Assembly (NCBI GenBank): GCA_031081585.1
Contig: JAVHLY010000011.1
Span: forward strand, 1 to 64,000
Source: Armatimonadota bacterium
Lineage (GTDB): Bacteria; Sysuimicrobiota; Sysuimicrobiia; Sysuimicrobiales; Humicultoraceae
Length of the DNA stretch: 64,000 nt
Direction: 5' to 3'
The translations under genes were made by a program, and so were the position numbers. The notes below the pieces were generated by a model. That model did not search any database. It was not told where the DNA came from and worked only from the letters and a program-made list of their open reading frames with translations. Numbering within the stretch: position 1 is the stretch's first letter; every line of letters starts with the position of its first letter. Shown piece after piece: positions 23,966-26,805 of this stretch.

Positions 23966-24556
23966 ATGGCGGAGAACCGGCTCCTCTCCATCGGGCTCGC
24001 CCTCCTTCTCCTGACCGTCTCCCTGGGGCTGGGGTGGCTGGCCGGGCGGCTCTTCGAGGCCGGGTCCGCCCCGACGGTGAACGAGGCGGCGCTGCCGCCG
24101 CCCCCGACGATTCCACCGGGCTCCGCTCCCGCACGGATGGTCGGCGGGCCGCGGACGCCCGGCGCCACCGCCACCGTCCGGCCGACGCGGCCGGCGCCGG
24201 GCGGGGCTCCTGCCGCAGCCGGCCCGATGTCGACGCCGACGCCGTCACCGCAAACCTCGCCGCCTCCGCCGGCCGCGCGCGCCACGCCCATCGTGCTGGG
24301 ACAGAGCGAGGTGGTCTCGCCGGCGCCTGCTAGGCGTCCGCTGCACATCGTGCAGGTGGCAGTCGTGGAGACGCGGGAGGAGGCGCAAGCCCTGATGGTC
24401 CGGCTCCGGGGCCTGGGGTTTGCGCCCTACCTCGTCGCCACGCGCGAAGGGTTCGCCGTGCGCCTGGGGGCGTTCCGCCGCGCCGCACACGCCGCGGCCC
24501 TCGTCCGCCGGGCGGAGGCGGCCGGAGTGTCCGTCACGGTGATCGTGCGTCCCTGA
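23966..24556 (+). CDS. Membrane-anchored SPOR-domain protein
   Basis: A 196-residue protein with an N-terminal membrane helix (LLSIGLALLLLTVSLGLGWL), a Pro/Ala/Thr-rich linker of about 80 residues, and a C-terminal SPOR domain (HIVQVAVVETREEAQALMVRL then VRLGAFRRAAHAAALVRRAEAAG). SPOR domains bind denuded glycan strands at the division septum, so the protein probably localises to septal peptidoglycan with the SPOR domain outside the cytoplasmic membrane. It diverges from comM, 28 bases away, and is one of few plus-strand genes. The start follows AAGGGACG, an acceptable ribosome binding site. Confidence 0.82.
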   Translation: MAENRLLSIGLALLLLTVSLGLGWLAGRLFEAGSAPTVNEAALPPPPTIPPGSAPARMVGGPRTPGATATVRPTRPAPGGAPAAAGPMSTPTPSPQTSPPPPAARATPIVLGQSEVVSPAPARRPLHIVQVAVVETREEAQALMVRLRGLGFAPYLVATREGFAVRLGAFRRAAHAAALVRRAEAAGVSVTVIVRP

Positions 24557-24594: not shown

Positions 24595-25053
24595 TCAGAC
24601 CGGTTCCACCGGGTCGCCCACGCGGATCGTCCCGTCGCTGAGGATCGCCGCGCGCAGCCCGCCCCGGTGCACCAGGCCGCGCAGCACCCCCGGCCGGGTG
24701 AGCTGCTGCAGGTGGTGGCACGGTTCGCACAGGCCCACCCCGCGCAGGCGCACCTCGCCGACGCGGAACTCCCGGTGGACGAAGTGGTTGAGCGGGACGC
24801 CCCGCGTGACGATGTTGCGGCGCGTCTCCCCCGGGTCGATGACGACCCCGTAGTCGCGGGCGAGCGCGTCGACCGCCTCGGCCTCGACGAGGGTGACCTG
24901 CTGGCCACCGTGGCCGTGTGGCGACGGGGCGCCCTCGTAGTAGCGGTCGCCGACCAGCCCGCGTCCGGCCTCAGCCCTGACCTCCGTCACCGACTGCATG
25001 GGGGCGCCCGGGGCGGCGGCGATGTGGATCGATTCCACGACGCCACGTACCAC
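24595..25053 (-). CDS. MOSC-domain protein
   Basis: A protein of about 150 residues with the MOSC (molybdenum cofactor sulfurase C-terminal) fold: VESIHIAAAPGAPMQSVTEV, then GRGLVGDRYYEG, a TLVEAEAVDAL segment, RNIVTRGVPLNHFV and the cysteine-containing GLCEPCHHLQQLTRPG. Stand-alone MOSC proteins (YiiM/YuaD-like) handle sulfur or metal-cofactor-related detoxification; the substrate here is unknown. The start is uncertain: GTG at 25053 or 25038, both without a good ribosome binding site. A longer open frame to 25746 is antisense to the DDE protein gene and is not coding. It is divergent from that gene across a 220-base gap with no recognisable signal. Confidence 0.8.
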   Translation of the reverse strand: MVRGVVESIHIAAAPGAPMQSVTEVRAEAGRGLVGDRYYEGAPSPHGHGGQQVTLVEAEAVDALARDYGVVIDPGETRRNIVTRGVPLNHFVHREFRVGEVRLRGVGLCEPCHHLQQLTRPGVLRGLVHRGGLRAAILSDGTIRVGDPVEPV

Positions 25054-25273
25054 CAGGGCGGGCTGGCTCGCCGACCGGGCCGCTGTGCCCCCGGTCGACC
25101 GGCCCGCCCGGCCGTGACGGAGATGGTCAGCAGCACGGTCGGCCATCGCCGGGAAGCTTTCCCCGGCGGGGCGGACCCACCCTGCCGGTCGGGGCGCTAC
25201 CCGGAACTCCTTCATGCCGGTCGGAGGGAAGTCTGCGGGAGGTCTAGGGCCGGCCCGCGCCGGGCACGAACCG

Positions 25274-26431
25274 ATGGACCGAGGAACGACAGCGGCCATG
25301 GCTGACGACGCCGTCACGGAGGCCCGAAAGGGGGACTCGGAGGGATGGCCCCCCAGCGTCCCAGAGCGTCCCATCGCCTTCCTCCTCCTGGACGGTCTCC
25401 GCCGCCCCGGGCGAGGCAGCGACGTGCTGCTCTGCGCCCTGGGCCTCACCCTGGACGGGGAGCGTGTGCCGCTCGCCGCCCGGCCGGCCGCCCGCGAGGA
25501 CGAGCACAACTGGCGCGAACTCCTGCGCGGGCTGCGCGAGCGCGGCATCGGGGGCGAGCTCGTCCTCATCGCCTCCGACGGCCATCCGGCGTTAGTCAAA
25601 GCGGCGCAAGCCACCTTCCCGGACGTTCCGCAGCAGTTGAGCGTCCCCCACCGGCTGCTCGCGCTGGCCCGTCGCATCAGCCCGCGGTGGCGCCGCGCCT
25701 GCATGAACGAAGCGCGCCAGATCTTCACGGCGCCCGACCGCGGCACCGCCGTGGCCCGGTTCCGCGAGTGGCACGGGCGGTGGCTGCGCCTGGGCGAGCC
25801 GGCGGTGCGAACGATGGAGCCGGACCTGGCCGCCTGCCTGGCCTTCTACCGCTTCCCGCCGCACCTCTGGCCGCGCATCCGCACCGTCAGCGCCGTCGAG
25901 CAAGCCTTCAGGCACGTGCGGCGAGAGCAGGAAATCACCCGGATTCCTGAGCCGGCAGTGCCGGAGGCGACAGAGCTGGACCGCTCCGACTTGCCCCCAG
26001 CGGAGCCGGTGGCGGTGGACCCCGAAGCGGTAGGTGCGGCAGCCCCCTGGCCTCGGGGTCCCGTGCCTGAGATGCTCCCCGACGTCGAGCCCGGGGAAAG
26101 GACAGAGCCACCTGCGCCCGTCGTCGGCCTCTCCGACACCGCGCCCGTGCTCGACCCCCAGCCCCTCTCTCCGACTGACGCAGCCCCGGCTCAGGAGGTG
26201 TGGGCGCTCCAGGAGGTGGACCGCGAGCCCGTCTGGCCGGTCGGCCCGCAAGGGAGCATCCCGTCCGGCCGCGTCGAACCCGGCCCCGCCGCAGCGGACG
26301 GACCACCGCAGGAGGTGCAGCCCCGCCCGGCGCTGCGCGAGGGTCTGACCAGTTGGCGCTGGGTCGCCCTGGTTGTCCTCGTCGTGGTGCTGGGGCTGGC
26401 GGCGGGCGTGGTCCTGGCCCTGCGCTCCTAG
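25274..26431 (+). CDS. IS256-type DDE core fused to a C-terminal membrane anchor
   Basis: From the ATG at 25274 (others at 25214 and 25298) the protein is 385 residues. Residues about 30-220 match the IS256/mutator transposase core. The catalytic acids are D40 (LLLDG), D102 (IASDGHPAL) and E209 (RTVSAVEQAFRHVRRE), spaced 62 and 107, close to known IS256 enzymes. Also present are WRELLRGLRERGIGG, QIFTAPDRGTAV, LAFYRFPPHLWPRIR. The roughly 150-residue N-terminal DNA-binding region of IS256 transposases is absent, and the usual QRCxxH motif is QLSVPH. Residues 220-360 form a Pro/Glu-rich linker, and 361-383 a membrane helix (WRWVALVVLVVVLGLAAGVV) with a short basic tail. No terminal inverted repeats or target duplication are evident. 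I infer a domesticated, membrane-tethered transposase derivative of unknown role. Confidence 0.8.
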   Translation: MDRGTTAAMADDAVTEARKGDSEGWPPSVPERPIAFLLLDGLRRPGRGSDVLLCALGLTLDGERVPLAARPAAREDEHNWRELLRGLRERGIGGELVLIASDGHPALVKAAQATFPDVPQQLSVPHRLLALARRISPRWRRACMNEARQIFTAPDRGTAVARFREWHGRWLRLGEPAVRTMEPDLAACLAFYRFPPHLWPRIRTVSAVEQAFRHVRREQEITRIPEPAVPEATELDRSDLPPAEPVAVDPEAVGAAAPWPRGPVPEMLPDVEPGERTEPPAPVVGLSDTAPVLDPQPLSPTDAAPAQEVWALQEVDREPVWPVGPQGSIPSGRVEPGPAAADGPPQEVQPRPALREGLTSWRWVALVVLVVVLGLAAGVVLALRS

Positions 26432-26805
26432 CCGCCCCGGTCCCCTTCTCCGAACGCATCGCGCACCACCTCGATCCGCGCCCGGCCGGCCCGCACGGCC
26501 AGCGCCACCACGTCGAACCGGCAGGGTCGGTCTGCCAGGCCCCGGGCGGCCACGAACGCCCGCGCCAGTCTGAGCAGCCGGCGTCGCTTGGCCGCGTCGA
26601 CCGCCTCTGCCCCGCCGCCCGCCCGGCCGGAGCGGCGGGTCTTCACCTCCACGAAGACGACGGCTTCGCCGTCGAGGGCCACCAGGTCCAGCTCCCCCAG
26701 ACGCGTCCGCAGGTTCCGGGCGATGATCCGGTACCCGCGCGCCTGGAGGTACCGGGCGGCCACCTCTTCGCCGCGCCGGCCCAGCACCTGCCGTCTTCCG
26801 CTCAC
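26428..26805 (-). CDS. yraN: YraN/UPF0102 nuclease-like protein
   Basis: A 125-residue member of the YraN family with a restriction-endonuclease-like fold. Seen are GRRGEEVAARYLQARGYRIIARN, the catalytic-type LGELDLVALDG and VVFVEVKTRRS (the E-x-K motif), and KRRRLLRLARAFV. The biological role is unproven, probably nucleic acid processing. It is convergent with the DDE-anchor gene, overlapping its last four bases, and lies next to rnhB as in many Firmicutes. Confidence 0.9.
   Translation of the reverse strand: MSGRRQVLGRRGEEVAARYLQARGYRIIARNLRTRLGELDLVALDGEAVVFVEVKTRRSGRAGGGAEAVDAAKRRRLLRLARAFVAARGLADRPCRFDVVALAVRAGRARIEVVRDAFGEGDRGG

Follow-up and report, generated by a model that had tools for sequence, protein, structure and literature searches.

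A tail-anchored protein derived from an IS256 transposase core in one family of Sysuimicrobiota

Eukaryotes offer well-known examples of domesticated DDE transposases, such as plant FAR1/FHY3, Paramecium PiggyMac and yeast Kat1; few have been documented in bacteria. The gene described here is like all three in that a transposase core was recruited as a selected single-locus host gene; unlike the present family, they work in the nucleus or on chromosomal DNA. To our knowledge, no other IS256 core on a bacterial membrane anchor exists among the domesticated DDE transposases. A survey of titles and abstracts in the open literature found neither an IS256 domestication nor a membrane-anchored one, and a paper on PGBD5 yielded no membrane parallel. 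RodZ, which enters the comparison through one relative, has the layout HTH_25, transmembrane (TM) segment and RodZ_C.

ISCth4 is an IS256-family (Mutator-type) transposase of solved structure. Its dimerisation, N-terminal DNA-binding (NDB) and HTH domains occupy residues 1-165, the catalytic domain covers residues 165-261 and 325-407, and the insertion residues 261-325 (PMC7780238). The catalytic triad is D175/D241/E348, with spacings of 66 and 107, and the CxxH motif is formed by C262 and H265; in Hermes, the His of this motif contacts the scissile phosphate (PMC7780238).

Like ISCth4 TnpA (PDB 6xg8, 6xgw and 6xgx), the protein studied here, encoded in a window of 64,000 nucleotides (the whole stretch of DNA that was analysed), has an RNase H core with a helical insertion, a D/D/E triad, a spacing of 107 and the His. 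Unlike TnpA, it has none of the dimerisation, NDB and HTH domains, its catalytic domain stops short of the C-terminal end, and it bears a linker and a tail anchor; most family members have lost the CxxH Cys. The family also differs from IS256 elements, as it has no recognisable terminal inverted repeats (TIRs) and one anchored copy per genome. Unlike RodZ, the window protein has neither RodZ_C (PF13464) nor HTH_25, its core being Transposase_mut.

Architecture of the window protein

The open reading frame ends at position 26431 of the forward strand and, from the start at 25298, encodes 377 amino acids. Alternative starts are found at 25214 and at 25274, the latter being that of the preliminary description; residue numbers here count from 25298. 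The features are the following:

25298..26431, +, tail-anchored domesticated IS256 core protein (ORF; PF00872, 3.4e-24; orthologues 61-65% identical in four genomes of the same family)
25370..25927, +, RNase H-like catalytic core with alpha-helical insertion domain, residues 25-210 (profile match; AlphaFold2; Foldseek)
25391..25393, +, D32, first catalytic acid, equivalent to ISCth4 D175 (alignment; D in 7/8 family members, L in G004)
25577..25579, +, D94, second catalytic acid, equivalent to ISCth4 D241 (D in 7/8 family members, S in the G001 paralogue)
25640..25651, +, degenerate CxxH motif, S115-xx-H118 (C lost in 7/8 family members; H in 8/8)
25898..25900, +, E201, third catalytic acid, equivalent to ISCth4 E348 (E in 5/5 tail-anchored copies; A, R and R in the three paralogues)
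25943..26347, +, linker rich in Pro, Ala and acidic residues, predicted to be disordered, fast-evolving (AlphaFold2 pLDDT mostly 40-70; composition; dN/dS)
26348..26425, +, C-terminal membrane helix, residues 351-376 (AlphaFold2 helix with pLDDT 83-96; hydropathy 3.1)

The Pfam match to PF00872 covers only positions 162-354 of the 379-position profile, which bears out the earlier claim that the N-terminal DNA-binding region is missing. The dimerisation, NDB and HTH domains are absent, and the frame upstream of the core gave no match. The core stops shortly past the Glu helix, the last ~45 residues of the IS256 catalytic domain being gone as well, and the NCBIfam IS256 model scored 110 bits (1.1e-31), under its equivalog cut-off of 150 bits. 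The three acids previously recognised as D40, D102 and E209 correspond to D32, D94 and E201, with the reported spacings of 62 (D32-D94) and 107 (D94-E201), and the QRCxxH motif, rightly described as altered, reads QLSVPH, with the Cys lost and the His kept.

In the AlphaFold2 model, the core has pLDDT values mostly >95 and its strands and helices follow the RNase H order. The structural comparison with the IS256 fold that had been proposed as a check gave a positive answer: five ISCth4 chains (3e-11 to 6e-10) were the only Foldseek matches at E <0.001; beyond them, folds of a generic RNase H-like or ribosomal type followed for the most part, at E >0.003. Searching solved sequences with a profile of close relatives likewise returned the ISCth4 transposase alone (three PDB entries, 1.5e-15). 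The model also contains the C-terminal helix 351-376, preceded by a linker of ~135 residues; the residues after the core comprise 19% Pro and 13% acidic residues. This helix leaves one residue before the stop codon and reaches its hydropathy of 3.1 over 19 residues. AlphaFold2, hydropathy and the presence of a TM segment in all five orthologues thus agree with the linker and single membrane helix described before; hydropathy of the last ~25 residues ranges from 1.9 to 3.1 across the five copies. With a single TM segment within its last ~30 residues, this is a tail-anchored membrane protein, whose N-terminal domain would be cytosolic. Arg/Lys residues ahead of the anchor in 4/5 copies, and the motif RPQRRRPRG ahead of the hydrophobic segment of the G004 relative, are consistent with such a predicted N-in topology.

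Relatives, genomic locus and selection

Orthologues occur in G005, G001, G007 and G006, all of the same family, with 61-65% core identity. Each of the five genomes has exactly one tail-anchored (type A) copy, with a C-terminal TM segment in every case. Profile searches revealed three more members, paralogues that all lie outside the syntenic locus, in the window's own genome (G000), in G001 and in G004:

G000:C28, L039:1-638, -, paralogue divergent from dnaG-rpoD (Glu replaced by Ala; C-terminus lost at the contig end)
G001:C18, L041:7855-8655, -, paralogue of 266 aa without anchor (two catalytic acids lost)
G004:C1:1834161-1834718 (core), L040:6352-7725, -, RodZ_C-fused paralogue of 457 aa (two catalytic acids lost)

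The G001:C18 paralogue is flanked by genes for a PLP enzyme (threonine synthase-like) and a CoA-enzyme activase-type protein. In the G004 member, the IS256 core leads into a hydrophobic segment and then, across a long linker, into a C-terminal domain of the RodZ type (PF13464, 5e-16). This domain shares 52% identity with its counterpart in the RodZ of G000 and 46% with the one in G004's own RodZ. Since the fusion gene lies inside a 3.15-Mb contig, a chimeric assembly is unlikely. Both genomes encode a canonical HTH-RodZ separately: that of G004 lies at an ftsK-cinA-recA locus, and that of G000 next to cinA-recA (genes named from sequence). AlphaFold2 gave both domains of the G004 member pLDDT values mostly >90, the core folding despite its missing acids; the TM helix was not formed in the model, and the hydropathy of 1.83 makes a TM segment likely.

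The five anchored copies and the three paralogues formed one clade (100/100) against 17 IS256 cores. A Ffh tree of the order divides the family between two clades, and all four members of one carry the syntenic copy. In the second, G006 has the anchored copy and G004 the fusion, and no member was found in G002, G003 and G008-G010 (G003 being 78% complete). This pattern fits a single origin before or early in the family, followed by relocation and loss; horizontal transfer within the family is also conceivable. Profile searches found no member in other families of the order. Over 386 genomes, the profile gave no further member, other proteins scoring at most 134 bits vs 254-331 bits for the eight known members, whose scores are not independent as they built the profile. 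A GTDB scan relying on near-exact short motifs, which paralogues would escape, matched only CSP1-3/Armatimonadota MAGs and one gammaproteobacterial sequence at 24% identity. In these searches, the gene is confined to one family of candidate phylum CSP1-3, now named Sysuimicrobiota (PMC11604079); among the lineages proposed at the outset, Sysuimicrobiota proved correct, and Limnochordia and Thermaerobacter did not.

Among the neighbouring genes in the window, the SPOR gene, yraN, and dprA and comM (the last two named from sequence) are as stated in the preliminary description. Those closest to the gene are the following:

23966..24556, +, small SPOR-domain protein directly upstream, with a hydrophobic N-terminal segment and a proline-rich linker (PF05036, 4.1e-7)
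24595..25059, -, divergent MOSC domain protein, likewise found next to the G005 copy (PF03473, 5.4e-15 and 1.8e-12)
26428..26805, -, yraN (UPF0102), convergent, with a 4-nt tail-to-tail overlap (PF02021, 4.8e-29; gene maps)

The syntenic locus extends from the comM region to yraN-rnhB in G000, G005, G001 and G007. According to the gene maps, the order of the gene followed by convergent yraN is repeated in G001, G005 and G007; the G007 contig stops before comM, but it does contain the MOSC and RidA-like genes known from G005. The SPOR-domain gene was not found beside the orthologues. In G006, the copy lies at another locus, adjoining genes for a M20 peptidase and a MerR-TPR protein, and yraN adjoins haem genes, as it does in G002, G003, G004 and G008-G010. 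The suggestion that relatives keep the gene at the same place, free of terminal repeats, was thus correct for 4/5 copies as to position and for the lack of a common repeat, and incorrect for the position in G006. In the gene maps of relatives, no partner gene is conserved beside the gene and no pathway is pointed to. In G006, the gene (L038:8574-9416, -) lies 255 bp downstream of the MerR-type HTH and TPR gene on the same strand, and co-transcription is possible.

Between G001 and G007, the dN/dS of the core was 0.22, compared to 0.27 for yraN, 0.21 for lepB, 0.22 for trmD, 0.26 for rimM and 0.13 for ffh. The tail evolves faster, with dN/dS of ~0.3-0.9 vs 0.25-0.41 for the core. No complete transposase lies close to the gene. 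Because of the synteny, the single anchored copy per genome, the lack of common repeats, the absence of a nearby complete transposase and a purifying selection like that on housekeeping genes, we conclude with high confidence that this is a domesticated host gene of IS256 origin and no IS remnant, as had been suggested. Its IS256 origin, the loss of end recognition, the conserved anchor, the purifying selection, the single clade and the intact fold are established by computation.

Possible roles of the anchored core

That the gene might be a decaying truncated IS element, kept open merely by GC-rich DNA, is hardly credible. It does have a 25-nt inverted match (21/25) at 25165-25189 and 26517-26541, a quality reached by none of 200 shuffles, but the right arm lies inside yraN, a flanking direct repeat is absent and no orthologue has the match; synteny and the core dN/dS indicate selection. 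No TGTAAA was found within 300 bp of the gene and the orthologues share no inverted repeat, in a test of low power, since the control, a complete IS256 from G008, reached no more than 17/25. It is also very unlikely that the protein regulates or inhibits mobile IS256 by sequestering the transposase or the transposon ends at the membrane. The genomes do contain IS256-type elements or fragments, but the domains lost are those that dimerise and bind ends in IS256, and G008 and G010, with the fullest IS256 matches in the family, are without the gene.

The remaining readings turn on the active site. D/D/E and the catalytic His are intact in 5/5 anchored copies, so the intact catalytic core described earlier stands for these, but not for the three paralogues, which lack one or two acids. 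None of the three has the Glu; the G004 member is also without D32, and the G001 paralogue without D94. The CxxH Cys is lost in 4/5 anchored copies, G005 alone keeping it, and the His is retained in 8/8 members. The five anchored copies all retain 15 of the 25 columns conserved in IS256 elements, D94 and E201 among them. They retain D32 as well and have lost the Asn of HxLRN. As 81 of the 187 core sites (43%) are invariant in these copies, three given residues would stay invariant with a chance of ~0.08, and the retention of D/D/E is weak, merely suggestive evidence of catalysis. Catalysis is not the trait that the whole family conserves, given the acids lost in the paralogues; the common denominator is a folded core, mostly at the inner membrane face, with catalysis optional. 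An active membrane nuclease, processing DNA at the membrane in e.g. natural transformation or chromosome segregation, is accordingly doubtful, and we regard it as improbable. The invariance of D32/D94/E201 and H118 in five genomes speaks for it, as do dprA and comM, which lie less than 5 kb away in the window and are also close to the gene in G001; however, the Cys is mostly lost, the paralogues are dead at the active site, the G006 copy has an M20 peptidase and a MerR-TPR gene as neighbours, and dprA and comM share neither operon nor strand with the gene and belong to other transcription units. The DNA uptake role proposed in the preliminary description finds no support, the gene being convergent with yraN, in no operon with dprA or comM, and located elsewhere in G006. 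A RodZ-like adaptor, in which the core would keep only its fold and bind a cytoskeletal, division or envelope partner at the inner face, nucleic acids being irrelevant, is rather unlikely but is a rival to be taken seriously. It is favoured by the G004 relative, which follows RodZ's order from globular domain through hydrophobic segment to PF13464, with an IS256 core short of two acids in place of the HTH, alongside a separate canonical HTH-RodZ. Against it, the five anchored copies retain the complete triad and the His that contacts the phosphate, the RodZ fusion occurs in one genome, and a conserved partner gene is lacking.

The reading that we tentatively prefer, while holding it as somewhat short of probable, is that the core is a membrane-tethered module on the cytosolic side which binds nucleic acid, possibly still cleaving when anchored. 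An IS256 transposase would have shed its dimerisation, DNA-binding and HTH domains and the last ~45 residues of its catalytic domain, and the retained RNase H core with its insertion domain would be suspended on the inside of the cytoplasmic membrane by the flexible linker and tail anchor. There, the basic core may hold DNA or RNA near the membrane, with H118 and the D/D/E pocket still meeting the phosphate backbone, and the tail-anchored form might still nick, in a metal-dependent manner and without transposon-end specificity. The N-in topology, the nucleic-acid binding and any cleavage are what we infer. This tether is supported by the single clade, the synteny, the core dN/dS, the conserved triad and His, the Arg/Lys ahead of the anchor, and a fold that stays intact even two acids short. 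The core net charge of +4 to +16 agrees with it, but lies within the range of mobile IS256 cores and is inherited and non-diagnostic. Also against it are the acids lost in paralogues, the missing Cys, the modest odds against chance retention of the triad and the loss of the specific DNA-binding domains.

The transposase core could be a general cytosolic module of bacterial membrane proteins, with an anchored form that binds and perhaps cuts nucleic acid at the membrane and a dead RodZ-like form, although we consider this unlikely. If true, the HTH of a RodZ-like morphogenesis protein was replaced by a catalytically dead core. The family displays several stages in related genomes, namely anchored copies with the triad, triad-less paralogues and a fusion to an envelope domain. 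Its hosts are uncultured bacteria; the small, well-folded members make the role of a transposase core without its DNA-recognition part directly testable.

Anti-phage defence was rejected, as none of the five members tested had a PADLOC match. A phage origin was rejected too: PHROGs matches of any strength were transposases only, and IMG/VR held no close relative. Separate IS256-type frames were observed in family f7, at L093 and L079 (G025:C37 and G038:C11), where they form their own branch; that of G038:C11 is a 256-aa frame without N-terminal domains, located between metabolic and ABC transporter genes.
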